DNA of 39,934 nucleotides from Deltaproteobacteria bacterium (GTDB lineage Bacteria > Desulfobacterota > BSN033 > UBA1163). Position numbers and translations under genes: made by a program. Positions 4,533 to 23,500 of the stretch are shown here, one piece after another. The notes below the pieces were generated by a model. That model was not told the origin of the DNA, searched no databases, and saw only the letters and a program-made list of their open reading frames with translations. The stretch lies in the NCBI GenBank assembly GCA_018333535.1, contig JAGXTA010000062.1:1-39934 (forward strand). Reading direction: 5' to 3'. Positions within the stretch are counted from its first letter, which is position 1. Each line of letters starts with the position of its first letter.

Positions 4533-4970
4533 TGTTTGCGACATATTTATGACGATATTTGCGACAAATTTACGGCCATGTTCACGGCTCCTTAAGAAAC
4601 CAAGTTAATGAATTTAGGTTTGTCTTGTGCTTGACCTGCCCGCCGAAAATAAGAGTGGGCAGAGGGTATGCCTGACACGAATAAATGAGCAGCAGCTTGC
4701 TGCACAAATTCCTTGGTTTCAAACAGAAATCACGGAGGACTTGTAAGACAAAGAACGTGTGACTGACGATTTTTAGGATGCCCTTAAACGGAGGATTCCT
4801 CAAGGGATTGGGGTTTATAGATTTTGCAATATGCGCTATGCTTTTTTTGACAGACACGGTCACGAGACACGCCTGCCCCGACAGATCGGGGGTCACGTTT
4901 TTAATTAAAAGGATTGAAAGGGGAGAGGGAGCAGGAAATTTAGTCACATTTCAAGGCCTGACACCTCAGC
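4533..4970 (+). other. Non-coding gap with short direct repeats
   Basis: No gene is recognised. Just after the Fic stop, TTTGCGACATATTTA (4535-4549) and TTTGCGACAAATTTA (4558-4572) form a direct repeat with a 23-base period. Near 4866-4916 a sequence of the form CACGCCTGCCCCGAC...GTCACGTTTTTAAT resembles 3331-3370 upstream of the Fic gene, which suggests a dispersed repeat. The rest shows nothing clear. Confidence 0.4.
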
Positions 4971-4975
4971 TTGTC

Positions 4976-4996
4976 GAGGTCACAAATTGTGACCTC
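4976..4996. repeat. 21-bp perfect palindrome inside ORF6N frame
   Basis: Arms GAGGTCACAA and TTGTGACCTC flank a single central A. It encodes RSQIVTS in the ORF6N frame. Confidence 0.85.
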
Positions 4997-5009
4997 AACC
5001 CCCCATTCC

Positions 5010-5034
5010 AACCGGTCACAGACTGTGACCGGTT
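5010..5034. repeat. 25-bp perfect palindrome inside ORF6N frame
   Basis: Arms AACCGGTCACAG and CTGTGACCGGTT flank a single central A, 13 bases after the preceding palindrome. It encodes RSQTVTGS. Both palindromes share the inner form GGTCACAnAnTGTGACC. Confidence 0.85.
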
Positions 5035-5515
5035 CACATGGGGGGCGACGCTATCTACCCTATGCATTCACAGAGCACGGTGCACTTATGGCAGCAAACA
5101 TCCTGCGCAGCAAGCGGGCCATTCAGATGAGCGTGTTTGTGGTGCGTGCATTTATTCGGATGCGCCAGATGCTTGTTGAACATCGGGGGCTTGCACGCAA
5201 ACTCGCAGAATTGGAAAAAGAATTTACCGCAAGGCTTGATGTTCACGAGACCACCATTAACGAAATAATTATACAAATCAGGCGATTGCTGAGTTCACCG
5301 CCAGAATCCGAATCTCCCAAGAGACGAATTGGATTCTTGGTGGAGGAACCACGTGTGCCGTATGAAGCTTCAAAAGGATTTAAAAAGCAAAAAAGGCGAT
5401 AAGCTTTTATCGTTAATCGTATGGGTGTCGTTTTTGCTTTGAATTTTCCCCTGACGCCTTACGGCTTGCGTTTCACGGAAGTTAATTTTGGTACACGTCC
5501 CATGAGGTCTATTTA

Positions 5516-6580
5516 ATGAACCTTCTACCCACCAAATCACTTCCCCCATCGGACATTTTGTTTAAGGATTTACGGGAGTTAATAATCGAAGCCCGGCGGG
5601 ATGTGGCGAGGCAAGTGAACTCTGCATTGGTTCTCCTCTACTGGCGCGTGGGTAAACGCATTCGGCAGGACATCCTCAAGGAAAAAAGGGCGGGATATGG
5701 TGAAGAGATTGTGCCGACACTATCGGCACAATTAGTCCAGGAGTTCGGGACAGGCTTCGCCGAGAAAAACCTGCGGCGAATGGTTCAATTTGCTGAAGCA
5801 TTCCCAGAAGAGCCAATTGTCGTGACACTGTCACGACAATTGGGGTGGAGCCATTTCGTCGCCATCATACCTTTAGATGACAATCTCAAACGTGATTTCT
5901 ATGCTGAGATGTGCCGCATGGAACGGTGGAGCGTCCGCACCCTTCGTCAGAAAATCTCCGGCATGCTCTTTGAGCGAACCGCTCTTTCCAAGAAACCAGT
6001 GGAGTTAGCCAAACAAGAACTCATTAAATTACGGGAAGAGGATAAACTTACACCTGACCTTGTCTTTCGTGACCCTTATTTTCTTGACTTTCTTGGTTTA
6101 AAGGATACTTACAGTGAGAAGGACCTTGAAACAGCGATTTTACGTGAATTGGAGGCTTTCATCCTGGAATTGGGAGTAGGGTTTAGCTTTGTGGCCAGAC
6201 AGAAGAGGATGACGGTAGACGATGAGGATTATTACCTCGACCTACTTTTTTACCATCGGAAGCTACGACGTCTGGTGGCCATTGATCTAAAACTGGGAAA
6301 ATTTCAGGCTGCAGATAAAGGCCAGATGGAGCTTTACCTTAGGTGGCTGGAAAAATATGAGCAACAACGTGGAGAGGATTCTCCAATTGGATTAATCCTG
6401 TGCGCCGATAAATCCGAGGAACAGATCAAACTGCTACAGCTGGACAAGAGCGGAATTCGTGTGGCGGCTTATTTAACGGAGCTTCCTCCTCGCAAACTTT
6501 TACAGAAGAAGTTCCATGAGGCCATACTTCTGGCGCGGGCGCATTTGGAAGAGAAACGCGGAGAACCAGGAAATGCCTAA
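5516..6580 (+). CDS. DUF1016 family protein with PD-(D/E)XK nuclease-like domain (YhcG type)
   Basis: A full-length (354 residue) DUF1016 protein. The N-terminal DUF1016_N helical domain (about 15-150) includes LYWRVGKRI, GYGEEIVPTLSAQL, FAEKNLRRM and the diagnostic QLGWSHF. The C-terminal PD-(D/E)XK-like domain (about 180-340) has DYYLDLLFYH followed by VAIDLKLG, with D and DLK as the expected catalytic residues, then KGQMELYLRWL. The family is common in mobile accessory loci and is thought to be a nuclease; its targets are unknown. IVxTLSxQL occurs twice (near residues 65-73 and 100-109), and each copy is encoded by a perfect inverted repeat. The ATG at 5516 has no clear Shine-Dalgarno sequence. 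The gene looks intact. Confidence 0.88.
   Translation: MNLLPTKSLPPSDILFKDLRELIIEARRDVARQVNSALVLLYWRVGKRIRQDILKEKRAGYGEEIVPTLSAQLVQEFGTGFAEKNLRRMVQFAEAFPEEPIVVTLSRQLGWSHFVAIIPLDDNLKRDFYAEMCRMERWSVRTLRQKISGMLFERTALSKKPVELAKQELIKLREEDKLTPDLVFRDPYFLDFLGLKDTYSEKDLETAILRELEAFILELGVGFSFVARQKRMTVDDEDYYLDLLFYHRKLRRLVAIDLKLGKFQAADKGQMELYLRWLEKYEQQRGEDSPIGLILCADKSEEQIKLLQLDKSGIRVAAYLTELPPRKLLQKKFHEAILLARAHLEEKRGEPGNA
5708..5732. repeat. Inverted repeat inside the DUF1016 gene, first
   Basis: Arms ATTGTGCCGA and TCGGCACAAT (10 bp, perfect) flank the spacer CACTA. It encodes IVPTLSAQL. Confidence 0.85.
5813..5843. repeat. 31-bp perfect inverted repeat inside the DUF1016 gene, second
   Basis: Arms CCAATTGTCGTGAC and GTCACGACAATTGG (14 bp, perfect) flank the spacer ACT. 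It encodes EPIVVTLSRQLG, the same peptide pattern as the first inverted repeat of this gene. Confidence 0.9.
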
Positions 6581-7209: not shown

Positions 7210-7956
7210 TTACTTACCATGAAGCATTACTATATCTTCATCAATGCCCTGCCGATAAATTTCTAGTCTTTCATTGAATCTTAATTCCTCGATATTGAGC
7301 GAACTAATTCTGACAGGGAAAAGCGAGGGAGTTTGGGTTAACATTTTTAGAGGTATAGATTTTAAACCGCTCGAAATTAATGCCCCCTCTATTAGCCATA
7401 TAGCAAGTCCTTTGTCCTTTATACCTCGATTAGGGGTGCCTTGGTAAATGCCCCTCCCCTCCCCTTTCTTTACCACCCCCCAATCGACAAAAGAAGAAAG
7501 GATACGTCTCGCAGCCCTTGCAACTGTTTCCCTTTCACCAAGCTGCTCCCGGATGCGTCTTTGAATTTGAGCCAATGTGAAAGACTCCTGCAATCTTATA
7601 AGCCGCCCGACTTGTTCTGCAACATTTGCAAAAAAGGGGTAAACAGCCATCGTCATTCCCCAGTGGACTGCCAGGTGGTCCTCCGAAGGCAGTTTTTTAA
7701 GAAATTCCAAACCTTCTTTGTGAAATGCCGCCAAAGATCCGGGAACGGATACCCATATTTTCAAAAGAATTGTGATCGCTTTTTCCCGAGCTCCTCTTTC
7801 AGGGCTGCTACCTATAGACAGCTTGTCCTCCAGGAAATCTTGAAGTTCTTTTTCGATCTCCTCTCTTGTGTTTCCAGCAAGGAAAAGCCTAGCTGTTTTC
7901 TCAAGCCAATCCAACTTAATTCTTTGACTAAAGCCAATCTGGGTTATTCCTGCCAT
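7210..7956 (-). CDS. brxA: BREX protein BrxA (DUF1819 family)
   Basis: A 248-residue BrxA-like protein, the usual last gene of a type 3 BREX operon. The sequence starts MAGITQIGFSQRIKLDWLEK and shows the alpha-helical, winged-helix-like character of the family (QRRIREQLGERETVARAARRI, then SFVDWGVVKKGEGRG). BrxA is thought to be a small DNA-binding component; its exact role is unresolved. The frame is open upstream to 8109, but the start is placed at the ATG at 7956. That start overlaps the end of pglZ by 13 bases, which fits translational coupling, and gives the usual BrxA length. No downstream hairpin terminator is evident. Confidence 0.82.
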   Translation of the reverse strand: MAGITQIGFSQRIKLDWLEKTARLFLAGNTREEIEKELQDFLEDKLSIGSSPERGAREKAITILLKIWVSVPGSLAAFHKEGLEFLKKLPSEDHLAVHWGMTMAVYPFFANVAEQVGRLIRLQESFTLAQIQRRIREQLGERETVARAARRILSSFVDWGVVKKGEGRGIYQGTPNRGIKDKGLAIWLIEGALISSGLKSIPLKMLTQTPSLFPVRISSLNIEELRFNERLEIYRQGIDEDIVMLHGK

Positions 7957-9959
7957 GAGGATTTCTTTTCCATTCGAATCAGCGGGACAATTAGCTCTTC
8001 GATTGAGATCCCGCCATGCGCAACGATCCTGGTCTCTTCTGCGATAAACGCCATACGATCTGGAGCAAGCAATGGCAAAAAATCGTCTGGTAATCCGATT
8101 GTGGGCCATTCTATTGCATTTAAGAAACGTTCTTTAATCTTTGATCTTAAAAGGCTGTCCGGATAAATGCGGACTCTCTCACCACGGAGGTCTGCAATTA
8201 CACCTTCGGAAGGCCGCCCATAGCCTACAGCTTCAATATTTCCATGGTCCGAGGTCAGAAAGATTTGAAAATTATGTTCCAAAAGGAGATTAAGAAGCTT
8301 GGCCATGCATCCTTCCATAGTCCATTGCTGGATTTGATTATGCATTCCTGCTGTCCCCAGTTCCATTCCATGCATAATCTTATCCACCTTATCAACAATA
8401 AGCCCAATGGCCCGGATTCTGGGATACGAAAGGATTTCTTTAACTTCCTCGATACCTTGGTCGCCGATTCCCTTAGCATAAGCCACTTCGTTTTGATTTA
8501 GCCCCTGGTCTGACCAAAACTGGGTCCAGAGCATGGGTTCTTTGTTGGTGCCATAGATGCTTGAAGGGAAAAAGAGAGGGGCCTTTCCAGCGAATACGGA
8601 CTGGCGAGATACCGAGGTGATTGTTGGTATCCAAGCAAAAACACCATCATCATGAAAACGAAGGTCTGGACACTGTGAACCTAATACTTCGCGCATCACA
8701 ACCCACTGGTCGAGTGCCAAACCATCGACCAGAAGGAGAGCAACCCTGGCTTTTTCTGATTGGCTCAATTCTCTTGCAAGAAAACGTGGAATATGGTGGA
8801 GCATTACTGGCGGCACTGCCGGTTGGTTGTGGAGACCAGCAAACCTATTTTGAACCCATGTCAGAAACGCTGAATCTAATTGCCCACGAAGTTCCTTAAC
8901 CCTTTCTAAAACCTGTAATGTTTGTTCGTCAGACCTATCAGCCAACAAAGCTGTGAGTTCCGCCCAACGATAAGCAAATAGCACCCAATCCTGGTACCTG
9001 GCTTCTGGTTCCGGTAGCGTACCCTCAACCGATTTTATGAGACCATCCAACCTCCGCAGACGATCCGCTTTCTCATCAATACGAATTCCAACCGCAACCC
9101 ATTTCCCAGTGAAGAGTCCAGATTTTTCATGTCGCACGGGATGCAACAGCCCTTCGAGGAACAGACTGTCGATGTAAATACGGATATCGTCATGATCAAA
9201 AGGTAAATCGGCAGGCCCTTCGAACGCTAAGCCGTAAGATTGCTTCTCCTCTTGGACCTTGCTTATGTCCATGCCAGTAATGCCGTCTAGAAATATTGGC
9301 CAACGCTCCTGCAAAAAACCAAGGAACGCTTGCTTGTCAGGGATAATCTGTTTAAGCGGCCAATCATCGAACAGACCTCCCTGGCGGAGAACGTACATAA
9401 ATCGCTCGTCTAAAATGCGGGGAATCCCTTGTCCCCTGTAATGGCGACGCAGCAGCACTCTCAGAAGGTCCGATGGTTGCTTGATAAGCTCTGGGGCGAT
9501 CTCGAATACGTGGCGAAGGACGAAATCTTTTGTCGCATTGTTACCGAGTTGTCCAGGATTTTGTGTATTTTGAGCTTGATAAAGAGACTCAAGGTCGCCT
9601 CGATTTAATGATGCAACCACTGGGTAGCTCAAATTGGGAAAGAGGTCACCCAAATTGAATGAGAGTTTTCGTCCCGTCTCCAGAAGATCATACGGTAACG
9701 AGTTTAGACTATTTGACGCAGACCTAAGTACGACAACAAGATCCGTATGTTTCCCATCGTCCCATCTTGACCGAAACCTGGATTCATAGGCGTACCTGAA
9801 GGAAACATGATCCTCAAACGGAATTAGCTCAAATCCTCTTTCTCGAATCGCTTGCAAAACACCCTCTTCCAGTAAAAGACCATCAGGATCAGCCACGAGC
9901 GTCAATCGTGTGATCTGTGGAGTAAACTCCCGAAGAATTTGGTCGCGCCAATCACCCAT
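7944..9959 (-). CDS. pglZ: BREX type 3 PglZ, alkaline-phosphatase-fold protein
   Basis: PglZ is the signature BREX component, a predicted metal-dependent phosphatase-fold protein needed for defence; its substrate is unknown. Counted from an upstream GTG at 9968, the PglZ core begins at LLLVDGLALDQW (411-422). It continues with PTITSVSRQSVFAG (448-461), which supplies the threonine/serine of the active-site region, then TSDHGNIEA (572-580), and ends with the family-typical VAHGGISIEELIVPLI (649-664). The N-terminal 400 residues are the BREX-3-type extension. I place the start at the ATG at 9959 because AGAGGTG lies six bases upstream. It overlaps the helicase stop by 8 bases. Protein length from this start is 671 residues, and it looks intact. 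Confidence 0.9.
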   Translation of the reverse strand: MGDWRDQILREFTPQITRLTLVADPDGLLLEEGVLQAIRERGFELIPFEDHVSFRYAYESRFRSRWDDGKHTDLVVVLRSASNSLNSLPYDLLETGRKLSFNLGDLFPNLSYPVVASLNRGDLESLYQAQNTQNPGQLGNNATKDFVLRHVFEIAPELIKQPSDLLRVLLRRHYRGQGIPRILDERFMYVLRQGGLFDDWPLKQIIPDKQAFLGFLQERWPIFLDGITGMDISKVQEEKQSYGLAFEGPADLPFDHDDIRIYIDSLFLEGLLHPVRHEKSGLFTGKWVAVGIRIDEKADRLRRLDGLIKSVEGTLPEPEARYQDWVLFAYRWAELTALLADRSDEQTLQVLERVKELRGQLDSAFLTWVQNRFAGLHNQPAVPPVMLHHIPRFLARELSQSEKARVALLLVDGLALDQWVVMREVLGSQCPDLRFHDDGVFAWIPTITSVSRQSVFAGKAPLFFPSSIYGTNKEPMLWTQFWSDQGLNQNEVAYAKGIGDQGIEEVKEILSYPRIRAIGLIVDKVDKIMHGMELGTAGMHNQIQQWTMEGCMAKLLNLLLEHNFQIFLTSDHGNIEAVGYGRPSEGVIADLRGERVRIYPDSLLRSKIKERFLNAIEWPTIGLPDDFLPLLAPDRMAFIAEETRIVAHGGISIEELIVPLIRMEKKSSWQE

Positions 9960-12855
9960 TGGATACACCTCTCTGTACCCGAACCAAAATAAGGGGCAGC
10001 ATTTCTGGACTCACCTTAGCCTTTCTTTCGAGGTGTTCATGCCATGACTTCTCCTCTTGAGCAAGCTGGCCAAGCCTATAATTTCGTACTGCCGGCAACC
10101 CAATTCGCCCAATGGCACGTCGGCGTGCCGTGAACGCATGCTCCCCCTTTTCCTGCTCAGCAATTAGGTGTTGGCGGTGTTTTTCAACAAGCTCTTCATA
10201 AACAGGTTTTCCATGTATTTCTGCGGCTTCCATGACTCGCTCAAAAATGAGCCGAGCTTCCTCGTTTTCAATGTAAGCACCTATCCTAACAGAGTCTGAT
10301 AAGAGCCCATCCCAGATACGCCTTGCAGTCGGCAGCAAGACTCTTCCGTCGTCATGCAGAAACAGCGGCATAATGCGTTTCTGATCCCAATCGGCAGAGT
10401 AGATCGATATTCTCCACAAGGACCAGATCCCACGCACATCCGAAGGAAGATCTGAAAGACCAATGATCGGTATCGGTTGGTCGGGAACAACACGGGTGAT
10501 CTCCATGGCCAACCCCCGAATCCGAGGGTCTTCCAGGGTGAGGTGCTGCGCAGTAGGCATCTGTTCAGCATCCCTACTACTAAATACAGCATCATAAATC
10601 TTTGTGCCATCCGGCCAATTGAGTTCCCACCTAGTACCATGCCGCTCGGCGGAACCACCGTGGGCTCTGAGATAGTTGACGGTCATGCACTCAACCCAAT
10701 ACGGGAGTGGGTGTGCCATTAACCTCTGGGCTTCATTGGGGTCCAGGTTCTCTGTTTCTCCGAGCACCGATCCACTCTCGCGTACTCCCTTCGCCATGGA
10801 TTTAATACGTGTCGCTACATTCTCCACGGATGTCTCTATAGTCTCTGGATGGAGAATAGCTTCCACATAGAGATCGTCGAACATTTGGCCCGTCTGGGCC
10901 GAATCGAGTACGTCACCAGTTTTGTCGATACCAAATTCTTCGAGGATGACGGCCAATTTCTCCTCAAGGACCTCACGCACTCGACGCTCCACTGAATCTT
11001 CGAAAACAAAGTTTACAGCGCGCACAACGTGCTTTTGGCCTATACGATCCACCCGCCCAATACGTTGCTCCAACCGCATTGGGTTCCAGGGTATATCGTA
11101 GTTTATAACCGCATGGCAGAATTGAAGGTTTAGACCCTCTCCTCCTGCATCTGTAGAGATCAGCATGCGCGCATCTTTCGCAAAGGTGTCTTGGGCACGT
11201 TTCCGTTCATCCATATCCATGGAACCGTTCAGACACACCACTGAGAACCCACGGTCTGTAAGAAAATGATAAAGCATCTCCTGAGTAGGAATGAACTCTG
11301 TAAAAATCAAGACCTTCAGATCCGGATCTCCTTCTTCCTGCTGGAGTCGGTATACCCAGTCAAGAAGGGCCTCTGCTTTAGCATCGGGCCCGATCTGATC
11401 GCATCTTTTCGCAGCCTCAAGAAGCGCCTTGACTTCTTTTCGTTCATTTTTGATTGCCTTTAAACGGGTTTTCAGTAGGGTTTCAATTTGCTCCTGTCCA
11501 TCCAGGTCAGCCCATTCTTCTTCTGAATACATCGGAAAGAGCGTCAGTTGTTCTTCCGGCGTCTCCAGCGCCTCAAGCCGACGCTCCAAACTCATCCGGA
11601 TAGCTCGGGTGCTTGACACTACCAATCGCTGCATAAGAATCATCAGGAAACCAATATAACTCCGCTTTTCGAGCATAGCCTGGTTGTAACCTTCTCGGAC
11701 ATACTCAGTGACCGCGTGATAAAGAAGGCTCTGTTCCCTGTGCCTGCCTGCCGGAGCGCCGGCGCAGGCAGGGCGGTCTTCCCACGAAACGGGTACCAGT
11801 TGTGTACGCCGTGGTTTGAATAAGGGTTTCCCCTCCGCATCGATGGCCCGGCGCTTCTCCGTTCGGATGACGTGGCGGCTTACTCGATCTTTCGTAACGC
11901 TTTCAATATCAGGAAATTCTTCGGGATCGATCAAGGAAACCAACCGCTGGAAAGCATCGGTTTTCCCTTGGTGTGGGGTTGCAGAGAGCAAAAGCAGATA
12001 TGGCGCTGCTTCAGATAGCCCTTGACCTAGCCTGTACCTTGCAACCTGGTCTGTGCTACCGGCAAGCCGGTGAGCCTCATCTACAATTACCAGATCCCAG
12101 CCAGCAGAAATCAAATCTTCGAAACGCTCCCGGTTATATTCCGCAACATCTTCGGGTGTCCAGCCCCGCCGTTTATCCAGGGGTTTGAAAGAGTCCATAG
12201 GAACAATAATTTGCGAAAATACTCGCCATGGGTTAGACGGTAGTCCCGGAAAATCTGATGGGGGTTGGTTCAATTCTTTGACTGCTCCAAATTTTGAACC
12301 GTGAACCTGTGAACCTTTAAGTGTAATTCGTCTAAGGGTTTCGAGGTCGTCGGGCAGTACGAGTTGGAATTCCTCATTGAAATGGAGCTGCATCTCAGCC
12401 ACCCACTGGGTGACAAGGCCTTTTGGAGCAATCACAAGCGTTCTGGTTGCCAGGCCGCGAAGCTTTAATTCGCGCATAATGAGACCGGCCTCAATCGTCT
12501 TGCCGAGCCCTACCTCATCCGCCAGCAGATAGCGCACCCGGTTGTCCAATATTGCCCGGGAGAGCGCTTTGATTTGGTGCGGTAAAGGAATAACGGACGC
12601 TTCGATGGGCGCAAGCAGCACATCATGGGTTAAGGTATCCGCAATGCGGGCTGCAGCTGTTATATAGGCAATAGCATCACTTGTCCCTATATTTGCTTCG
12701 CTTAGGGGCTTAAGACTGTCGGAACGAACTCGAACGATAGCATCCTGACCCGGAAGCCAGACGCGATAGGTCGTCTCGCCCCAGAGTATCTGGGTTTCGA
12801 TGACCTGACAGAGTTGATTGTGGTCTACACTGAAATGCCAACTTCCTTCGCTCAC
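9952..12855 (-). CDS. brxHII: BREX type 3 helicase BrxHII (SNF2/DEAD-like)
   Basis: A 967-residue SF2 helicase/translocase. Motif I is DEVGLGKT (113-120), motif II VDEAH (258-262), motif III LLLLSATPHQGK (287-298). The C-terminal RecA domain carries TDAGGEGLNLQ, then IPWNPMRLEQRIGRVDRIGQ, as in RapA/SNF2-type proteins. In BREX-3 this is the BrxHII position and architecture; it presumably moves on DNA during phage restriction. The start is a GTG at 12855, 14 bases after the preceding stop, with AAGAGAG upstream. Residues about 361-373 (PACAGAPAGRHRE) are encoded by a GC-rich palindromic repeat that also occurs inside brxC, so this segment is probably an in-frame insertion into a loop. The gene is otherwise complete. 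Confidence 0.9.
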   Translation of the reverse strand: MSEGSWHFSVDHNQLCQVIETQILWGETTYRVWLPGQDAIVRVRSDSLKPLSEANIGTSDAIAYITAAARIADTLTHDVLLAPIEASVIPLPHQIKALSRAILDNRVRYLLADEVGLGKTIEAGLIMRELKLRGLATRTLVIAPKGLVTQWVAEMQLHFNEEFQLVLPDDLETLRRITLKGSQVHGSKFGAVKELNQPPSDFPGLPSNPWRVFSQIIVPMDSFKPLDKRRGWTPEDVAEYNRERFEDLISAGWDLVIVDEAHRLAGSTDQVARYRLGQGLSEAAPYLLLLSATPHQGKTDAFQRLVSLIDPEEFPDIESVTKDRVSRHVIRTEKRRAIDAEGKPLFKPRRTQLVPVSWEDRPACAGAPAGRHREQSLLYHAVTEYVREGYNQAMLEKRSYIGFLMILMQRLVVSSTRAIRMSLERRLEALETPEEQLTLFPMYSEEEWADLDGQEQIETLLKTRLKAIKNERKEVKALLEAAKRCDQIGPDAKAEALLDWVYRLQQEEGDPDLKVLIFTEFIPTQEMLYHFLTDRGFSVVCLNGSMDMDERKRAQDTFAKDARMLISTDAGGEGLNLQFCHAVINYDIPWNPMRLEQRIGRVDRIGQKHVVRAVNFVFEDSVERRVREVLEEKLAVILEEFGIDKTGDVLDSAQTGQMFDDLYVEAILHPETIETSVENVATRIKSMAKGVRESGSVLGETENLDPNEAQRLMAHPLPYWVECMTVNYLRAHGGSAERHGTRWELNWPDGTKIYDAVFSSRDAEQMPTAQHLTLEDPRIRGLAMEITRVVPDQPIPIIGLSDLPSDVRGIWSLWRISIYSADWDQKRIMPLFLHDDGRVLLPTARRIWDGLLSDSVRIGAYIENEEARLIFERVMEAAEIHGKPVYEELVEKHRQHLIAEQEKGEHAFTARRRAIGRIGLPAVRNYRLGQLAQEEKSWHEHLERKAKVSPEMLPLILVRVQRGVSNG
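11743..11772. repeat. REP-like palindrome inserted in brxH coding sequence
   Basis: Arms CCTGCCTGC and GCAGGCAGG (perfect, 9 bp) flank a GC-rich 12-base centre. The outer sequence matches the palindrome inside brxC at 22156-22194, including the flanking G and GC. The reading frame passes through without a stop. Confidence 0.8.
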
Positions 12856-12869
12856 CGTTATTCACTCTC

Positions 12870-14063
12870 TTACCAAAGACGCTCCAATATAAAGCCTCTG
12901 GCATCTTGAAGTGCAGTCAATGCAGCACGGTTCACATCAATTATGTTCTGAAAATCGCGGTCTTGGCCGCGAACGCCTCTTCGGTGAAGTTCATTTATAA
13001 GTGCCTCGGCATTATCAAGCAGTCGGGAGTGCCATTCTGCTGTTTCTCTGAAGGATGTCCGAGAAACTTCACGACACTGCCGGTACAGACATTGCAGATA
13101 GTGTCGGTGGGCTTGCTGCTCTGAGTAAGCCGTAGATGTGGGTTGGGCTCCAGAAAAAAGGATCCCGGCATAATCTGATTCCATAGCAGCATCTGCCCTG
13201 AGGTGGTTAAGAATCCCTGCCCTGAATGCCATATCTAAAAATGGAATCTTATATTCTGACAGAGCTTGTGGACAGTAATACCATTTCACTCGTCGGCTGA
13301 TTTCATCCTCTTCTGTTTCCTGAAATTTGCTCGTGGAAAAGGACCTAACGTTCAACCATATGCCTGACGCGATGGCGTCTACTTTAGAAGCCGCAAGACA
13401 AAGCATCTGATGGCTGCTATAACCAACTATTACGGACTTACCTTGCAGCTTCAGGCCGGAACAGAGTACTAAAAGATTTGCCAGCCACATCGGATCGTCT
13501 ACCAAATACTGGGCCCCAGGATGTTCTGGCACCACATATAGCCCATCTACATCCCATATTTCTGCTGAGTTAATCACCATCTCTATTTGGTCTTCAAAGC
13601 GCATGGCCTCTCCGGAAAGACAAACGGTGGCAATACGTGGTCTATCCGCAACTACTGTAGCCGCCTCAGTAATAACGCTATCTTGAACTGCTAACCAGTC
13701 ATCGTCGACACGTTCACCATAAATGCCAGGGATTATGAACCGGTCAGCTTGCGCTGCATTATTTAAGGCCAGAAGGCGCTGTAACAAGTGAGCGAGTTTA
13801 GGGCCTCCGCTCAGCATACTTGTGTCAAAGTCATCGGGCCAATAATCATGTCTAATAAGACGGGGATGAGTAGCGCGGGGATCATAAAATTGAGGATCCA
13901 CCAAGATCCTTCCACCCATGCTCGCAACCTGTGAGCCAAAACGTTGTATCTGTTCCGTTGTTAAATCGCGTGGGCTCATTATTACAGTGCCAACACCCCA
14001 AGAATCAACGAGGTGCCGGCAATGCTCCATCATGCCATATCCGAACTGTAAATAAAGTTCCAT
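12870..14063 (-). CDS. Unknown alpha/beta protein embedded in BREX operon (possible TIM barrel)
   Basis: I do not recognise this 397-residue protein. Regularly spaced hydrophobic strands with polar ends suggest a (beta/alpha) barrel: GTVIMSPRD (25-33), GRILVDPQFYDP (51-62), RFIIPGIYGE (108-117), RIATVCLSGE (143-152), DGLYVVPEHPG (173-183), SVIVGYSSHQ (210-219) and DAIASGIWLNVRSF (229-242). Conserved-looking polar residues sit at strand ends, as in an enzyme active site. The C-terminus (about 300-397) is alpha-helical with several arginines. A distant tRNA-guanine-transglycosylase-like barrel is one possibility, but no zinc-binding CxCxxC motif is visible. It starts 3 bases after the kinase stop, with AGGAG inside the kinase end, and is 14 bases from brxH. 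It therefore belongs to the operon and most likely acts with the kinase and nuclease-like neighbours. The fold is an inference. Confidence 0.6.
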   Translation of the reverse strand: MELYLQFGYGMMEHCRHLVDSWGVGTVIMSPRDLTTEQIQRFGSQVASMGGRILVDPQFYDPRATHPRLIRHDYWPDDFDTSMLSGGPKLAHLLQRLLALNNAAQADRFIIPGIYGERVDDDWLAVQDSVITEAATVVADRPRIATVCLSGEAMRFEDQIEMVINSAEIWDVDGLYVVPEHPGAQYLVDDPMWLANLLVLCSGLKLQGKSVIVGYSSHQMLCLAASKVDAIASGIWLNVRSFSTSKFQETEEDEISRRVKWYYCPQALSEYKIPFLDMAFRAGILNHLRADAAMESDYAGILFSGAQPTSTAYSEQQAHRHYLQCLYRQCREVSRTSFRETAEWHSRLLDNAEALINELHRRGVRGQDRDFQNIIDVNRAALTALQDARGFILERLW

Positions 14064-14066
14064 AAC

Positions 14067-14927
14067 TTAATCTCCTGTGCTGCTATTTATTGCGCCACGT
14101 GTTGAGTCAAACCATTGTCGCGCATGAAGTGCAGATGGTGGTCGTCGGGAAGGGTACTTTGACATCAGTAGAGCAATGAAATTAACTAATTGGTTCTCTA
14201 TGTCGCCTTCTATTTTCAACGTATCAGGAATCATGGTTTCCGTGCGTCGCAGGGTATCAAGATGGTCTCTGGAACCTTCAGAAAACGGATGTCTTCCAGC
14301 AAGTGCTTCATATGCCACAACCCCTATTGCGAATAAGTCAGTTCTGATGTCGATTTCCTTCTTCAAGTTCCTAAACTGCTCAGGTGCTGCGTAGCCAGCA
14401 GTATGTGGTCCGAAATGAGCACCGGTTGGCGTTAGTGATGATTTTGCAAGATGTCTTGCAATCCCGAAATCGAGAAGCTTGAATGAGCCGTCAGGACAAA
14501 CCATGATATTTTCTGGTTTTATATCCCTATGCACAAGTTTTTCTTTTTCAAGTGCAACTGCTGTATTTAAGAGTGTATCTATAAGTGCCAATACTTGCTT
14601 GGTTGGCAATCGTCCTTTGGCTTTCATTTCGTCACGCAGATTTACACCCTCTATATACTCCTCAATGATAAAAAGAATGCTGTGCCCATCATGATCGAAC
14701 TTACCCCACTCATAAAGATGGGCTGTGTTAGGTATGTCACTGGATATAGCAATATCTATTTCCCGCTGTATTCTTTCGTTAGGTTCTAAAATCACCTTAA
14801 TAACCACTTCACCGTAGTCGTCATGGGAGGCGCGGAATACTATCTTCTGACCGCCCTGTGCAAGAGGCTTCAAGTCTCGAATACTTTTTATGTTCCTTTG
14901 TATTGTGTCTAGATCAAGCGGTTTCAT
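14067..14927 (-). CDS. Serine/threonine protein kinase (Hanks type) within BREX operon
   Basis: A 286-residue soluble eukaryotic-like kinase made almost entirely of the catalytic domain. The glycine-rich loop is LAQGGQKIVF (22-31), the ATP-anchoring lysine is K44 in VVIKVI, the catalytic loop is HRDIKPEN (133-140), the metal-binding motif DFG is at 153-155 and APE at 181-183. All key residues are present, so it should be active. There is no membrane segment or sensor domain. It lies 19 bases after the nuclease-like gene, with GGAG before the ATG, and 3 bases before the next gene. A kinase is normal in type 2 BREX (PglW) but not part of the six-gene type 3 core. It may modify BREX proteins or trigger the neighbouring nuclease-like protein; that is inference. 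Confidence 0.9.
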   Translation of the reverse strand: MKPLDLDTIQRNIKSIRDLKPLAQGGQKIVFRASHDDYGEVVIKVILEPNERIQREIDIAISSDIPNTAHLYEWGKFDHDGHSILFIIEEYIEGVNLRDEMKAKGRLPTKQVLALIDTLLNTAVALEKEKLVHRDIKPENIMVCPDGSFKLLDFGIARHLAKSSLTPTGAHFGPHTAGYAAPEQFRNLKKEIDIRTDLFAIGVVAYEALAGRHPFSEGSRDHLDTLRRTETMIPDTLKIEGDIENQLVNFIALLMSKYPSRRPPSALHARQWFDSTRGAINSSTGD

Positions 14928-14946
14928 TTATGTACTCCAGTTATCC

Positions 14947-15663
14947 TTATTGATGAAGATAGCGGCCTATCCATTCATTAAACATCCAGGAACCATAAGA
15001 AGATGGGATATTGCACTTCCGGGCTCCCAGATATCGTCTTACATGTGCCCCATTCAATAAAAATACCCCTACCCCGGTTTTTCGTGAGCGATCAATAATT
15101 GATTGGCTGGGCCTTTCAACTGGAGATAGCACATAAGATTCTGAAGCAAACCACTGGTCAAGCTGTCCTTGCTGAAACGCATCAGTCCAGTTTTTGATTT
15201 TCGCTTCAACTGCGATAATAGAACGCAGACCGAATATGTGATTTAAGGCTTCTGTTTTCCACATAGTCTTCGAACGAGTGATTAGTCCAGCGTCCAATAG
15301 CCGCTCTATTGAAGAAAGGAGAGGTTTTGCGGCAATACCAAGAGTCGCTATTAAGGCTGATGCATCTGCTCCTCGAACATTTGAAAGGTAATGTAAGATC
15401 TTCATGTCTATAAGTTTTAAAGAACTGCGGGCAGCCACCCATTGGTCGAACACCTTGGGTAAGTACTGAACTATGACAAGGTCAGGAAAACCGGACTCCA
15501 TCCGAGGTTCATGGAAAATTGCTACTGCACCTTTTTGCCAACGGAAACTCTGCGGTATATATTTAACAAAAGAATCAACAAGCTCTTTCTCTGTCCCCGT
15601 AACGCCATTGCGTGTAAGCAATCCGATTCGTTCATTTCCCCCAGTGAACTCGATCACTTTCAT
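14947..15663 (-). CDS. PD-(D/E)XK nuclease-like protein with inserted winged helix
   Basis: A 238-residue protein not assigned to a named family. It has the split signature of a PD-(D/E)XK nuclease: GFPDLVIV (58-65), supplying the PD aspartate, and IIAVEAKIKNW (149-159), supplying E153 and K155. These are followed by a helix with QLDQWFASESYVLS, typical of the last core strand in restriction-type folds. Between the two halves, residues about 85-135 read as a winged helix-turn-helix (IDMKILHYLSNVRGADASAL...IERLLDAGLITRS). A nuclease domain carrying an internal DNA-binding insertion is implied. The start ATG overlaps the pglX stop by one base (TAATG), so the two are translationally coupled. It could be a methylation-sensitive effector linked to PglX; that is inference. 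Confidence 0.65.
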   Translation of the reverse strand: MKVIEFTGGNERIGLLTRNGVTGTEKELVDSFVKYIPQSFRWQKGAVAIFHEPRMESGFPDLVIVQYLPKVFDQWVAARSSLKLIDMKILHYLSNVRGADASALIATLGIAAKPLLSSIERLLDAGLITRSKTMWKTEALNHIFGLRSIIAVEAKIKNWTDAFQQGQLDQWFASESYVLSPVERPSQSIIDRSRKTGVGVFLLNGAHVRRYLGARKCNIPSSYGSWMFNEWIGRYLHQ

Positions 15664-18509
15664 TATTCCTTCCCTGTTCTCGTCAACGCCTGGTCATACC
15701 ACATTAAAAGTTTTGGGTCTTCCTGTAAAACATTTTCCGGGATTTTTTGGGCAACTTCAATGATTGTCTTATAATCTCTCTCCTGCCAGGCTTTCTTGAA
15801 GCCGGCACGTACTGCCTCTAAGCGGAAAACCTTAAGCTGTCTCTGCTTGGATTCTTGGTACTCATTGAACTCCTTTAACAGGGCCCGTTCCCGGAGTTTC
15901 TCCAAATCACCTGCCTTGTTAGGGTCTGGTACACACCAGCGATCCTTAGCCTTGGCTTGCAGGACCGGGTCGTCTTTCGATAGATTTCGCAGTTCCTTGA
16001 AGTTTGTTGAAAGATAGCTGTGAATCTGGCTCGGCACGTCCCCATCCCCATCGTAACGCAGGAAGTTCTGTGCCAAGAGTTCATCCATTTCCAGCAATTT
16101 TTCGTTTTTTTGCCACCCTCCGATTTCCTGCATGAATTGTGGTTTCAGTTCTCCACCCGTTTGAGGTTTTTTGGTCAACTGCTGCCTGAGCCATTGGATT
16201 GCGCTGGACTCATCAGTCACAAAAAGTTCAAGCTGGAGCATCTCCTTTACAGTCATGCGTTTTCTGTCGTATTCGGCCACTTGGTCGGAAAGAAAATACA
16301 TGCCTTCCCGTTGGGGAAAGCGTTGGACAAGTCCTTGATAAAACTCCGCAGCGGAAAGCGGAACGGTAACTCCCCGTTGAACGTGAAAGGCAACCATACG
16401 GTCAAACAAAAGATAATTTTGCCGTTCGGCAATAACCTCGGCCTGCCCATCCCTGGAAACGAACACTGGGAGTTGTCGCAAGTGAGTGCGAATAAAATCC
16501 CAAGCGCCTTCCTCTGTGCCAGCGGTAAGCTTAAAACGTTCCTCCAAACCTCCATTGGGCTTGTAAGCGGAGATGATGAGGTCTTGCTTGACGGAATTGG
16601 CCATGAAAGCCGCTTTGACTCCACCATGCTTCTTATCAAGGGTACGAACATCGGCAACTACAAAACCTGCGTTTTCAAACGCTTCTTGAATCGCTGTCCA
16701 AACGCTGTTAAGAGAATTATGAAATTCTACAGTCATCCACCTGCCAGGCTTGAGACAGGCAAAATAGTTTTCAAAGCACTGAATCATCAGTGTCTTATAA
16801 TCACCGAGTGTTTTGTGTTGCGACTTATTCTGAATCGCTTCAGGTCTTTTATTTGTTAGAACCCTGAGCCATGCTTCCCACAAAAAACTGAGCTCAGAAT
16901 ACATTAAGTTCCCACCAAAAGGAGGGTCAACAAAAATGTAATCTACTAAACAGTTGGAGATCGCTTTTTGCGTTGACGACCTTGTGTCAACTAAATTGCT
17001 ATATTGAATAAATTTTGATAATCCTTCAAATCCCCTTTTGAGAAACTCGCTTCTGTAAGAGAATAACTCAAAAGGATTTTGTTCAACCCCAATTGATGGA
17101 ATAAACAATGTACCGGTTAATGGTCCATTGATTCTACCCCTTGGATTGTGTTTGTTAATTATGAAGGCGTTTCCTTTGTGTAAGTTTCTATTCAAACAGC
17201 TTGTGGCAACAAGTCGGACCGATGGAAATTTGACTGCCTTTGCCCAAAAGGAACTGAGAATCATCAAATTTCTAGGAGTATAGAAATGGTGTGCATTCGT
17301 GATTCCGACATTAAATGGATCTGGGGTTTTGTCCCCCTCGATCATGCGGTCTGTGGGAAACCAGTAGGGAATGTCGGACTGCTCGATCTTTTCGGTCAGG
17401 CCCAGATCGAGGGCGCCGGGTGTTTTCTCATATCGTTTCTTCCCCACGCTGTAGTTAATGAGCACAGGAACCTGCTTGGATTGGTGAGTGGTCTGGTTGA
17501 TGGCTTTGTCGAACTTGGTCACCCAGGCACGCTCCATGCGGCGCTTGGTGAGTAGGACACGGCAATGTGGGCAGGGGAATTCGTCCTTAACTTTGCCCGC
17601 CTTTTTGTCCACTGCCGCCTCCCAGAAAACCACCTCCCGCGTGCATTCTGGGCAAACGAATACATCAGACCAGACGGTGTAATTGATCCGGGCTTTGCTC
17701 TTCCCGTCGGTACGGGTGGTCTCATACATCCACCCGCATTCGTCTTCGACTTCCTTAAGAACGCGTTTGGCTTCACGCTCGAAAGCTTTAACGTCTACCG
17801 GAGTATTGTAGTTGTAACCGATAAATGTTGCTGCTGGGGAGAGGTCATTTAGAATTGCCCGCCGACCGCCTATCTTCGAAAATGCCCTTCCATTCTCATC
17901 CAGGATGGTACCATCCGACCGAACCTTATATCCAAGCGATTCGACCTCTTTTTTGCTATCGCATAATTGCGCAGCCACCCCAGTCATTCCCGTCCCACCG
18001 AAGCCGTCGAACACAACATCCCCCGGTTCGGTGTAATGCAGGATGTACCGCATGATAGCCTTGTGCGGTACCTTGGTGTGGTAGGAGTGGGCGTTGTAGA
18101 TCGGGTCGTTTTTGCCCTCGCTCACATCCGCGGCAAACGGCTCCCGCCGGTATTTATCCGTTTTGGAATCGTAGGGCTTCCCGTAGCACCGGATGAAATC
18201 CTCGATGAATGGGTTTGGACAGGCGGTATAATAAGGAGGGTCAGAAAGCGCAAGGATGTCCTCATCGGAGCCAATCGGAAAGCCTTCGATCTTGCGAAAC
18301 TCTGAGTCCTTCAGTTTTTCTTTGAGCTTTTCCAAAAAATAAGCCCGGCGGGCCTCATCATTCTCGAAGGTCATTCCGAGGCATTCTACTTGCTTCTTTG
18401 CTTTGGTCTCCAGTTCCTCCTGATAGGATTTCTCAAATAGATCGGGCTGACCGGAGGGGTCGCGGAATAATTCTTTTGTTTTCTTACCTGTGCGTTGTTT
18501 TTGTGCCAT
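15663..18509 (-). CDS. pglXI: BREX type 3 adenine-specific DNA methyltransferase PglX
   Basis: A 948-residue methyltransferase of the BREX-3 PglXI type. The order of motifs is SDPPY (89-93) before the AdoMet-binding FDGFGGTGMTG (167-177), the arrangement of beta-class N6-adenine or N4-cytosine enzymes. A zinc ribbon CPEC...CPHC (286-289, 313-316) follows, then a second catalytic-like VDPPFGGN (527-534). The C-terminal 300 residues are alpha-helical and probably recognise the target. In BREX this enzyme marks host DNA by adenine methylation to distinguish it from phage. A 331-base gap separates it from the AlbA_2-type gene upstream, unlike the tight spacing elsewhere in the operon. Only a weak ribosome site precedes the ATG. 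The gene is complete. Confidence 0.9.
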   Translation of the reverse strand: MAQKQRTGKKTKELFRDPSGQPDLFEKSYQEELETKAKKQVECLGMTFENDEARRAYFLEKLKEKLKDSEFRKIEGFPIGSDEDILALSDPPYYTACPNPFIEDFIRCYGKPYDSKTDKYRREPFAADVSEGKNDPIYNAHSYHTKVPHKAIMRYILHYTEPGDVVFDGFGGTGMTGVAAQLCDSKKEVESLGYKVRSDGTILDENGRAFSKIGGRRAILNDLSPAATFIGYNYNTPVDVKAFEREAKRVLKEVEDECGWMYETTRTDGKSKARINYTVWSDVFVCPECTREVVFWEAAVDKKAGKVKDEFPCPHCRVLLTKRRMERAWVTKFDKAINQTTHQSKQVPVLINYSVGKKRYEKTPGALDLGLTEKIEQSDIPYWFPTDRMIEGDKTPDPFNVGITNAHHFYTPRNLMILSSFWAKAVKFPSVRLVATSCLNRNLHKGNAFIINKHNPRGRINGPLTGTLFIPSIGVEQNPFELFSYRSEFLKRGFEGLSKFIQYSNLVDTRSSTQKAISNCLVDYIFVDPPFGGNLMYSELSFLWEAWLRVLTNKRPEAIQNKSQHKTLGDYKTLMIQCFENYFACLKPGRWMTVEFHNSLNSVWTAIQEAFENAGFVVADVRTLDKKHGGVKAAFMANSVKQDLIISAYKPNGGLEERFKLTAGTEEGAWDFIRTHLRQLPVFVSRDGQAEVIAERQNYLLFDRMVAFHVQRGVTVPLSAAEFYQGLVQRFPQREGMYFLSDQVAEYDRKRMTVKEMLQLELFVTDESSAIQWLRQQLTKKPQTGGELKPQFMQEIGGWQKNEKLLEMDELLAQNFLRYDGDGDVPSQIHSYLSTNFKELRNLSKDDPVLQAKAKDRWCVPDPNKAGDLEKLRERALLKEFNEYQESKQRQLKVFRLEAVRAGFKKAWQERDYKTIIEVAQKIPENVLQEDPKLLMWYDQALTRTGKE

Positions 18510-18840: not shown

Positions 18841-20568
18841 TCACATTTTTTTGGGTTTTTTGGGGATGACATAGCGTGCGTTCCTGCCTCGCCCTGGTTT
18901 CTGAATGTTCGGGTTTTCAGCCATGAGTTCCTTCATTAAGCGAATTACTTGGAAACGGTCCATTCTGGCTATTTGACGTATTTCGGCATTACTTAATCCG
19001 ACCTCTCCGTGTCTGGACCTTTCCATCAACACGCTCAACACCCGTGTCTTGGCCGCCTCCCAGTCGATGCGGCGGTCCCGCTCCGGGTGACCAGGCACGG
19101 AGAGTTTCCGATGGAGGTCATGACGCAGGGTCCAATAAGTTCCACGGCCGGTTCCCCCACGCTCAATGTCCCCGAATTCCGTTTCCATCAGGCTCAGAGT
19201 TTCCCGGGCATCGGACTCGGTCTGTTGCGTAATCCGGGCAGCGGTTGCTGTGTCGATCTCGGGGTGCCGCAGAAGGTGCTGAACGATAAGCAGGTGTTCG
19301 ACGGATAGGATGCGTCCCCGGTTCGATTCGTCCGCAACGAACATTCTGAACGGAACGGAAAGTTCGGAGGCCCTGAAGATCACCCGAACTGCTTCTCCCT
19401 CGTCAAGGATTGACGGTGGTTCCTTGCCCTCGATGAGCAAGGCCTGGTACATGCGGCGCACGCCGAGGTTGCTGCGGTTGACCAGGCGCAGGCGGGTAAG
19501 GGCATCTACCAGCGTGGGATTTCGCGGGACAGGTTCGTGCCGGAGGATGTTTTCGGGAGTAATGCCACCGGGGAGACCGCCTGGATTGCTGATCTCGAGC
19601 CGATCCTTGAACTGCTTGAGCAGGATCGGGCCATGGATCCGGTAGTCAGCATGGACCAAAGCGTTGAGCACTGCCTCGCGCAGGGCTATTTCCGGATAAG
19701 TACGGATCTCGAAGTGAAACAGGCCTTGCGGGACCGTGGCAATGGGGTTGTCGGCCATAATCCGATCGATGATTCGTTCCATTGCGAGGGGGATGGCGTC
19801 CTGGCCATCGGCGCGGTCAGAGTAGTCGGTATCCGTAGCCATACGCAGGTGCGTCCAGGCATAACCCTGGAAATGTTCGCGGATAGCTTCCGTGGTTCCA
19901 GCCAGAAGCAAGCCGGCCCGCAGAAAACGACCTTTGCGAATGAGTCCGATCGCTCCAAGAAGGTTACGGTCTGACTCTCGAAGCAGGTCATCTGGCGCCC
20001 TTTCCCGTGCAGCTGACTGGCGCAGGCGCTCCATGGCGGAGGCAGAGATCAGGGATTCGAGACGTCCCGAGATCTCGGTGGCTGTGAAGTCCGTCTCTCC
20101 CGTTTCCACCATGATCCGGCGACGAAGCGTACCGGTCAGAGGTTGACAGTCTTTACCAATGTGGACCTTACCTCTTCCGGCAGTGTCGGTATAGGGAGGG
20201 ATGCCTGGGTATATCTGCATAACCAGAACCCGACCCGTTCCTTCAGGCACGAGCAGTCCCTCAAAAACAGGCGTTAACTTAGGGTCGGTTGAATCGTATA
20301 CTGCCTTTTTCAGACGATTCACATCCACTTCAGGTGGCACGCCAAGTATGGCCCGGGCCCGGCCTGTGGCTTTCTCATTTATCCCGAAGACCACCGTTCC
20401 GCCCCCGCCATTTGCCATACAAATCGCCATCTCGACGACCAGGGCCACGGAATCCTTCATGCTGCGCGGAATCCACTCTTTGAAGTCAAGATCCTGGTCT
20501 TCGAGGGCATTGGCTGGCTGCTGTTCAAGCTCCTCCAGAAGAGATCGAATTTCCGAAACGCTTCGCAC
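18841..20568 (-). CDS. AlbA_2 (Schlafen-like) ATP-binding protein within BREX operon
   Basis: A 575-residue protein of the 'ATP-binding protein, AlbA_2 domain' type, resembling RecG-like putative transcriptional regulators. The N-terminal AlbA_2 domain has DLDFKEW (25-31) and AICMANGGGGTVVFGINE (48-65). A GHKL-like C-terminal part has the helix EIALREAVLNALVHADYR (about 292-309) and the ISNPGGLPGGI ATP-lid segment. The end carries a helix-turn-helix-like region (NAEIRQIARMDRFQVIRLMKE). It starts at a GTG two bases after the brxC stop, so it is co-translated with it. Its base composition is visibly more GC-rich than its neighbours, which suggests later insertion into the operon. It is not one of the six core BREX-3 genes; a regulatory role is plausible, unproven. 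Confidence 0.8.
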   Translation of the reverse strand: MRSVSEIRSLLEELEQQPANALEDQDLDFKEWIPRSMKDSVALVVEMAICMANGGGGTVVFGINEKATGRARAILGVPPEVDVNRLKKAVYDSTDPKLTPVFEGLLVPEGTGRVLVMQIYPGIPPYTDTAGRGKVHIGKDCQPLTGTLRRRIMVETGETDFTATEISGRLESLISASAMERLRQSAARERAPDDLLRESDRNLLGAIGLIRKGRFLRAGLLLAGTTEAIREHFQGYAWTHLRMATDTDYSDRADGQDAIPLAMERIIDRIMADNPIATVPQGLFHFEIRTYPEIALREAVLNALVHADYRIHGPILLKQFKDRLEISNPGGLPGGITPENILRHEPVPRNPTLVDALTRLRLVNRSNLGVRRMYQALLIEGKEPPSILDEGEAVRVIFRASELSVPFRMFVADESNRGRILSVEHLLIVQHLLRHPEIDTATAARITQQTESDARETLSLMETEFGDIERGGTGRGTYWTLRHDLHRKLSVPGHPERDRRIDWEAAKTRVLSVLMERSRHGEVGLSNAEIRQIARMDRFQVIRLMKELMAENPNIQKPGRGRNARYVIPKKPKKM

Positions 20569-20570: not shown

Positions 20571-23500
20571 TTACTCCAGAACAAGACGGACCTTATTTGG
20601 TTCTTTGCCTTTTATGAGCTCATCAATATAATCTTCGAATCGTTTTTTCATTTCCGCAGGTGTTGCTGGAGCCCCGCCGGAGAGTAAAGCCTGACGAAGA
20701 TCTTCAGTCTTAACATTGACTTTCACCAACCCTGACAGGACCTCCTTCAAAGCTTGAATAAAATCCTGAGTGAGCTTTTCTGGCAAACTGCGCTTCTTGA
20801 GAAAAGCGTCAACCTGTTTTCGAGGTGTCGGTTTGAGCAGGGGCAAATTCTCCCTGGTTGTTGGATCTTCGAGGTTTGTCAGTAGAGTCTGTGTCCAAGC
20901 AGAGAGGAGGTTTTCGAGTTCACCATCTAACCCTTTGAGAATAGCTCCAACTGGGGCCGCGAAAGGTTCAACACTCGGTTTGAAGGAACAATGGGGACAT
21001 ACGGGCGATACCTCCACTTCTTGCTGGGTGAGAGCAAAACAACTTTTGAGGTTCGCCAAACGGTTCTGAAAGTCGGTCAATTGCTGGCGTGGCATTAGGT
21101 CGATTGTTGATAGTTTCTGGATTGTGCTAAGGCGTTCATCACGCATCAGGGAGCTTTTGCGCTTATCCTCGTTGACTCCTAACCTTGCTTTGGTATGGGA
21201 CGTCATGTAGCTCTGGATATAAGACTTCTTCAGATCATTGAGCTTGTGGAGTATTTGCTGTCGAAATGCCGGGGTCGTCCGCTTTTTGGGGTCTGAAATT
21301 TCGGCAAGTGCATCAGTTTGGACTTTCTTCATAAGGACCACCCACTCATGGTCTGTTGGCAAAACAGCCTCCGCGGTAGATAGATAGGACGCAGTCGTAC
21401 CCAGGTCATATACCAATTCCTGCAATGACTCGACTTCGGCAAGCGTCTGCACTCCAGCTCGTTGGCTGTTTACCTCCTGAGTATCGTAACGGAAGTTCTT
21501 TAACTTCCCTGGAGTAGAATAGGCTTGGAGTGATTCGAGGAATGCCTTGGTATCCTCCAAACGTGACCGAATTGTTTTGGCTTCATCTTCTCCCAAAAGG
21601 CTTCGGCCCCAAAAAGTAAGTCCGCTCTGCATCTGCTGGAGTGCTAACACCAAACCCTCCACGTTTTTGACAACAGCACTCTGCATTGCTTGTAGCGGCT
21701 CGTCTTTGCCCTGGGTTACAAGTTGAGCCCAACCTGGAGGCAAGCCCAGAAGTTCGAAGACTGCTTTGAGTGCGGGGATATTCCATTCCTTTGGTCGTTC
21801 GATATGTTTGAATTGAATTAGCTCATCAATAGCGGTGCCGGCAAGAGCTGATAGGTTGCCGGCGTCTAACTTTTTGCCCGGGACAGAAAGAACCAGATCG
21901 CCTGAGTAAACCAGAGACGCCAATAGGACGACTGCCCATTCGGGCTCAAGCCGCAAACTCTGCGAAGACATATACTCAACCCCTAGTGTGTCTTGAATCA
22001 GTTCAGAGCGGTTGACAACCTGTCCATGACCCTTCTTTTTGAGAATTCCCAATATATGACTGGTATACTTGGAACGATACGGATCGAGTTTATCGCCATC
22101 GAGCAGTTCCAGTGCATCAAGGACCGCCGTTGCTTGTTTGGTGCGGTTCTGTCCGCCTGCCTGCCGCGCCGCTCCGCTTTGCGGCGCAGGCAGGGCTATG
22201 GCACGAAGGGCATCCTGCGCTGCCTGACCACGGTTGGCGTCAGTTATTAGCACAGAGAAAACAGGATATTCAGGGGCCTGGTCCTGAAAATGGCTTGTAA
22301 GACAAACAGAACCTGTAATGTTGACGATGTCACGGACATTGGCCCTTCCACCCCCGCCTGATGGGATCTTGCCCTTGACCCATTCAATGAGTTTCTTAGT
22401 TTTACCCTGGTAGACTACCTCAAAAGCCACTACAATATTTTCCTGTAGCCATTTGACTAGGTCGCGCAAGAATCCAGACGCTTTAGACTCATAGGTAGAC
22501 TTAGCGTGGCCAGACGAAGTTGACGCCAGGTCAATGGCCGCGGCATAGCTACGCAGCGCTGCACGAAAAACATCATCTCTCCCAGTCAGTCGAAAGAATA
22601 CCTCATCTGCCTTCTTCTCATCTTTGAAGGGCGGGGGGTCATTGGGCTGGATAAAATAGAGATAAAAGTCTCTGGGTGGAACGGCGGTTGAGCGCTCGTT
22701 TGGAGACCCAAAGAAGAGATAACCTCTGCGAGACGCCTTATGCTCGATCCATTCCAGCTCGTGCTGCCAAATCTTGTAACCAGTTACATAGGTCTGATCA
22801 GAACATTCCATTGCCCGTTTAAGGGCTTCAAAGTAGTACCGGTCAAGTTGAGAGTCACTAAGGCTTTCTGTTCGTTTTTCAATGAGCGCATCATAGTCAT
22901 CTATTTTCTTAAGATCTATGTAGTATTGGCGGTTCTCCGGGTTGGAGGAGATGAACTGGCCACTGACGGTTTTATGTATTTCACGTAGAACCGTCTCGAC
23001 TTGGGAAAGCAGATCATCAGCCGGAACACCACCGAGATCCTCAATGCCGGGCTGGTAAAGACAAAGACCGTCCCGGAGCTCTTCCGGGGTAGCTCCAAGT
23101 GAGGCATAGATATCCCCCATCGTTAGACGATGGATTGATAAACCGTAAATGATCCGAAGGGCCATGGGTTTATACGCGGGCCTCGTAAAAGCCTGCTGAA
23201 TGCGCGATTCAAGGACCTGGCTGCAGTCAATTACAGCCCTTATGTCTGGAACAGTGCGAAAAGAAGGATTCTCCTTCAACGTTGTCCAGTAGCTATCATA
23301 TCCAATAAGACCGGGATAATCTTTGGGAACATCTTTATCGAGCAACCGCTTCATCGCTTGAGATAGCGTCTTAAGCACCTCACGCTTTTCAACTGCAGTA
23401 ATGCGCTCAAAGGTATCGATATAGTCTGGATGAACAGGGAAAAGCCGGACAAACTCTTCCATCTGCTCATTCATATGACCGTAGAATTTAGCAAACGGGA

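Follow-up and report, generated by a model that had tools for sequence, protein, structure and literature searches.

The barrel protein encoded at 12870-14063 belongs to a three-gene unit together with a Ser/Thr protein kinase and a PD-(D/E)XK nuclease-like protein. This unit, which was absent from the first-pass annotation, is independent of BREX and is nested here within the BREX type 3 operon of the window, the whole 39,934-nucleotide stretch of DNA analyzed. The trio is probably a new antivirus module. We give an even chance to the reading that the barrel is part of a self-contained, mobile three-gene defense cassette in a BREX-3 slot, in which the barrel and kinase would sense and relay and the nuclease would be the effector in a back-up to BREX.

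We infer the following course of events for the cassette installed in the pglXI-brxH cargo slot. A small molecule made or changed during infection, or when the host restriction system fails, would be bound and perhaps processed by the barrel; a nucleobase, a nucleotide, or a phosphorylated compound is most likely. The kinase, tightly coupled to the barrel, would relay the signal by phosphorylation, and the winged-helix PD-(D/E)XK protein would cut DNA when BREX needs a back-up. The direction from barrel to kinase to nuclease is suggested by gene order and analogy, and the effector could instead be the barrel. Somewhat below even chance, we place the broader proposal of an undescribed bacterial and archaeal defense system, where the barrel senses or makes a nucleobase-type signal, the kinase relays it, and the nuclease executes, carried as cargo among BREX-3, type I restriction-modification (R-M), and stand-alone sites. 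If true, this would be a signaling defense system with a barrel component unlike known sensors and with a phosphorylation-controlled nuclease.

The barrel protein and its likeness to TGT

The barrel ORF has 397 codons and an ATG start on the minus strand, and the plus strand at this place is full of stops. The first-pass annotation had described a 397-residue protein at these positions and named no strand; the protein it described is indeed encoded there. The ORF is a real gene, because full-length homologs with 35-69% identity occur in unrelated genomes. In a survey of 2000 genomes and of plasmid and viral collections, full-length homologs with 47-69% identity were found on eight contigs from the genomes of unrelated taxa (Planctomycetota, Acidobacteria, Methylotenera, Armatimonadetes, and one unassigned bacterium). 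Viral contigs also carry homologs, and those with 22-28% identity are present in further genomes, one haloarchaeal plasmid, and one Polaromonas plasmid. The genome of the window itself has a single copy. No family of Pfam, PADLOC, or NCBIfam covers the barrel, and PDB sequence searches with the single protein and then with a profile gave nothing credible (the best match, E 0.19, was to antibody chains), in agreement with the earlier remark that it matches no known defense family. One of the 28 barrel members in alignment A5 matched phrog_30305 of PHROGs (6.7e-5), a family of unassigned function, so a phage-borne relative may exist; a direct search of phage records for the barrel found none. 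The candidate L017 (E 9e-4) was rejected as a relative for want of profile support.

A family of barrel-only genes in Acidobacteriota (L048, L049, L050, and L051), with neither kinase nor nuclease, is related to the barrel by profile comparison (hhalign 98%, E 3.5e-14). These genes sit among metabolic genes, and those of L049 and L050 adjoin a cysteine dioxygenase-like gene and an AMP-forming ligase. The family may reflect what this fold did originally.

The AlphaFold2 model of the barrel, made with 26 homologs, has a pLDDT of 93.6 and a pTM of 0.93. Its alignment left out the plasmid sequences L010 and L022 and also the L048-L051 family, the latter because, though related, it has no kinase or nuclease. 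In the model, eight beta-alpha units are followed by a hairpin and C-terminal helices, and this helical extension begins at about residue 300. The strands (residues 2-6, 26-29, 52-55, 109-111, 143-149, 174-180, 210-213, and 230-233) are each followed by a helix and the Foldseek matches are barrels, which gives a (beta/alpha)8 (TIM) barrel fold; the regularly spaced hydrophobic strands seen earlier from the sequence are thus real and number eight. Conserved polar residues (Q6, S30, D56, Q58, Y60, Y215, N238, and R240) form a pocket at the C-terminal strand ends. Mean information at these ends is 2.58 bits, against 1.68 bits on the opposite face and 1.61 bits in the helices, and none of 20000 random draws in a permutation was as high. 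The same ends hold 18 of the 33 most conserved positions, against 7.6 expected. Q6, G8, S30, D56, P112, G234, and F242 are invariant, and P31, Q58, Y60, Y176, Y215, N238, and R240 are nearly so. As read from the alignment, the L048-L051 family has counterparts of S30, D56, P112, G234, and R240. The first-pass annotation had staked its proposal on a barrel with a clustered pocket, and the confident model has both. The conserved pocket at the catalytic face of the model suggests a candidate enzyme. The fold and pocket of the "barrel enzyme" proposed earlier therefore stand; an action on tRNA, DNA, or a nucleotide signal is a further conjecture, and the likeness to tRNA-guanine transglycosylase (TGT) is one of fold only.

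This likeness bears on an alternative that we consider unlikely, in which the barrel would be a divergent base-exchange enzyme of the TGT/DpdA type acting on tRNA or DNA, for self-marking or attack, and the kinase and nuclease would act on the modification as in the Dpd system. The barrel is close to TGT in size (about 390 aa), and TGT ranked first in the Foldseek search of the PDB (2z1v, E 5.6e-5). Query TM-scores for TGT were 0.46-0.50 over four entries (2pwu, 0.48; archaeosine TGT 1j2b, 0.50) versus 0.29-0.39 for other barrels, and the many glycoside hydrolase barrels among the matches scored below TGT. A viral queuine ribosyltransferase was the second match in the BFVD fold search. The invariant D56 lies at the end of strand 3, which we take to be the strand carrying the general acid Asp of TGT (D102 in Z. 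mobilis TGT), and DNA methylases are often near the cassette.

On the other side, a TM-score of about 0.5 goes with only 8-9% identity to the TGT structures. The profile of 25 TGTs from the host's phylum aligned to the barrel profile with E = 0.35 over 27 columns (hhalign), and TGT homology by sequence was rejected on this comparison. PF01702, the Pfam TGT family, matched none of the 28 barrel members, and the PADLOC DpdA model did not match the barrel. With strands equated by order, not by superposition, strand 8 (AIASGIWLNVR) has no conserved acidic residue in the place of the nucleophile Asp; G234, N238, and R240 are conserved instead. The zinc motif CxCxxC...H is absent from the barrel sequence. 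A scan of the window operon found no Dpd partner such as DpdB or DpdC apart from brxH, whose SNF2 similarity to DpdE is generic, and the barrel is accompanied by a kinase and a nuclease, not by a 7-deazaguanine pathway. The true Tgt of the host genome is encoded elsewhere, and the phage TGT matches found with it were plain Tgt, not DpdA. The fold search that the first-pass annotation suggested thus returned a TGT at the top, and the further step to a TGT identity failed on profile, nucleophile, and zinc site. The barrel is TGT-like in its predicted fold, TGT identity is not supported, and the barrel may act on a base.

The three-gene unit and its partners

The kinase (286 aa, 14067-14927, minus strand; Pkinase 3e-32) is gene 2 of the cassette and ends 3 nt before the barrel start, the barrel being gene 3. 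Its motifs are intact, with K44, E56, H133-R134-D135 (HRD), N140, and D153 (DFG) conserved, and by these motifs it is an active-looking Ser/Thr kinase. In PADLOC the kinase matched PD-T4-6 (5e-47) and MADS mad6 (1e-39). These systems share a related Ser/Thr kinase domain; unlike the cassette, they have another gene set and no such barrel, and kinase similarity alone is generic. Gene 1 encodes the nuclease-like protein (238 aa, 14947-15663, minus strand), whose start codon overlaps the pglXI stop by 1 nt. D61, E153, K155, and Q165 are invariant in 19 aligned sequences with overall identity down to 16%, which is the PD-(D/E)XK motif with its supporting Gln. In its AlphaFold2 model (pLDDT 92.6), an inserted winged helix separates the D61 strand from the E153-x-K155 strand and splits the core; the fold search gave only winged-helix matches, at E 0.01 or worse, and no PDB restriction enzyme. 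No PADLOC model matched the nuclease. A kinase and a nuclease-like protein had already been noted as neighbors in a defense operon, and both identifications hold, the operon being BREX-3.

Of 33 loci scanned with profiles, 32 have all three genes, a count that includes the near-duplicate pairs L005/L006 and L012/L013. The loci span several bacterial phyla, one haloarchaeal plasmid, and viral contigs. The exception is L039, where no kinase was detected in the short stretch scanned and the barrel frame looks damaged; the barrel is also broken in L040. In intact loci the kinase is always directly upstream of the barrel with a gap of -4 to +90 nt, frequently a 4-nt overlap. In most loci the nuclease gene is co-oriented and comes first; it comes after the other genes in L141 and L142, still co-oriented, and in L135, L137, L143, L144, L031, L039, and L040, where its orientation is reversed. 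Linkage that outlasts this rearrangement argues for one functional unit, and the fixed adjacency of kinase and barrel with a mobile nuclease position is as expected for a sensor-relay pair with a separable effector.

Most copies of the cassette have no BREX gene within the flank examined. Three adjoin type I R-M genes hsdS/hsdM/hsdR (L135, L137, and L138), two an N6/N4 DNA methylase (L139 and L132), one an Eco57I-type (type IIG-like) enzyme (L010), and one a helicase-REase (L144). The cassette of L003 adjoins a TrwC relaxase and AbiEii, and that of L005 an integrase. The neighbors in L001, L002, L004, L007, L008, and L131 are ordinary metabolic or unidentified genes, so the association with defense is not universal.

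It is rather improbable that the trio is a toxin-antitoxin-like or stress-signaling unit, in which the kinase phosphorylates a host target under the control of the barrel or of the nuclease-like protein as a repressor, and which is kept on plasmids and in BREX by selfish stabilization. There are precedents for kinase toxins, HipA among them; the contexts are plasmid and mobile ones, and the inserted winged helix could belong to a repressor. However, a pure repressor would not need the D, ExK, and Q residues that are invariant over very divergent copies of the nuclease, and the BREX-3 slot and R-M neighbors point to defense.

The defense reading has a partial parallel in PglW of BREX type 2, which is described in a BREX survey as a single chain of NERD-REase, Ser/Thr kinases, and wHTH, and is proposed there to be a sensory hub and back-up effector; some DndF proteins are likewise said to pair a kinase with a REase (PMC12839542). 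The cassette resembles PglW in its kinase, PD-(D/E)XK nuclease, winged-helix DNA binding, and BREX setting. It differs in having separate genes and an added barrel, and in its occurrence in BREX type 3 and mostly outside BREX. The cassette kinase reached 59.9 bits with the PglW model NF033442, whose cut-off is 990. As the pairing of kinase and REase recalls PglW and some DndF proteins, the most economical view is that the cassette is a split, portable counterpart with the barrel as its sensory part.

The BREX-3 operon and its cargo slot

The window contains a complete BREX type 3 operon on the minus strand, in the order brxF, brxC, Schlafen/AlbA_2 accessory, pglXI, nuclease, kinase, barrel, brxH, pglZ, and brxA. 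The P-loop protein gene brxF (24349-24828; NF033453, 197 bits, cut-off 50) is followed by brxC, a DUF6079 ATPase gene (20571-24317; 1814 bits), and by a gene for a protein with Schlafen/AlbA_2, HATPase_c_4, and winged-helix domains found by domain search (18841-20568). This architecture is among the BREX accessories described in the BREX survey (PMC12839542). The adenine methyltransferase gene pglXI (15663-18509; PADLOC PglXI, 1510 bits) is the upstream edge of the slot, and the SNF2-type helicase gene brxH (9952-12855; PADLOC BrxHI|BrxHII, 1522 bits), which starts 14 nt after the barrel stop, is the downstream edge. They are followed by pglZ (7944-9968; 1002 bits) and brxA (7210-7956; PADLOC BrxA, 1.4e-88). 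The brxA ORF runs to 8109; its start is probably near 7956, because the BrxA match covers residues 55-298 and the first 50 residues lie inside pglZ.

The cassette fills the pglXI-brxH interval (12856-15662). The only other copy found in BREX-3 is in L130, of the same phylum as the Planctomycetota genome, where brxC, pglXI, nuclease, kinase, barrel, brxH, pglZ, and brxA follow in the order of the window; its barrel is 65% identical to ours and its BREX-3 operon has diverged. The window and L130 thus represent two separate, independent insertions at one place in BREX-3. In L100, L116, and the plasmids L126-L128, the slot is empty (about 6 to 87 nt). Elsewhere it holds IetA and IetS (L099, and also L102 and L111 as judged by sequence), AbiU (L098), PDC-S19 (L097), HEC-01A/B (L120), Ppl with an NsnB/HEC-03-like ATPase (L118), or an NsnB/HEC-03-like ATPase (L117). 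Three stretches without an intact brxH edge carry SIR2 and HerA (L113), an NsnB-like gene (L119), and an AriA-like ATPase (L112), the NsnB-like and AriA-like genes being the Menshen- or PARIS-like part of the cargo. Nine of ten occupied slots scanned matched a PADLOC defense model, the 449-aa gene of L101 having no match. The interval thus behaves as a cargo slot for complete defense systems, as observed in L097, L098, L099, L102, L111-L113, L117-L120, L125, and L130 against the empty slots above. Since the cassette occupies it twice and known defense systems occupy it elsewhere, the cassette is likely a defense system of its own.

The same junctions could be read differently, with the trio as subunits or regulators that serve BREX-3 itself, and we regard this as quite improbable. 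The close junctions, 1 nt with pglXI and 14 nt with brxH, the same placement in L130, and the kinase and REase built into PglW of BREX type 2 (PMC12839542) would fit it. However, most cassette copies have no nearby BREX gene, and the trio is absent from most BREX-3 operons. A metabolic or sugar-hydrolyzing barrel with accidental neighbors would suit the glycoside hydrolases among the fold matches and the metabolic surroundings of the Acidobacteriota barrel-only family, but is very improbable given a linkage that holds in nearly every locus across bacteria and archaea, even where the nuclease gene is inverted.

A cassette with its own defense function would join IetAS, AbiU, and SIR2-HerA as a complete unit within the operon of another restriction system, probably as a back-up. 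PrrC inside type I R-M is an example of such nested defense. The trio itself, unlike these systems, is absent from PADLOC, NCBIfam, and Pfam. Our literature search, with subscription journals and preprints outside it, found no report of a kinase/barrel/nuclease system or of a BREX-3 slot; among BREX accessory effectors, the passages of the survey consulted name nucleases of PD-(D/E)XK, Schlafen-kinase, and further types, with no such trio and no such slot (PMC12839542). If our reading is true, BREX-3 operons have a fixed internal slot where complete defense systems swap, and it can be mined for further systems, one example being the 449-aa gene that L097 and L101 carry.

Remnants of the pglXI 3' end were found outside any BREX operon in L121 (6795-6932, plus strand), L122 (8349-8468, minus), L123 (6733-6897, plus), and L124 (5135-5251, minus). 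They are about 40-60 codons long and 71-83% identical, and directly precede Ppl-like and AlbA cargo (L121-L123) or other genes (L124), as if cargo had moved together with the pglXI tail. In L097, the last 25 pglXI codons recur 3 kb downstream (12540-12611), on the far side of the cargo genes, and this second copy resembles a duplication from insertion. To the left of the BREX operon in the window (1826-6580), genes identified by eye for a DUF4143-like ATPase (1826-3142), a Fic-like protein (3387-4532), a frame-shifted ORF6N-like gene (4778-5402), and a DUF1016-like protein (5516-6580) appear to mark the edge of an island.
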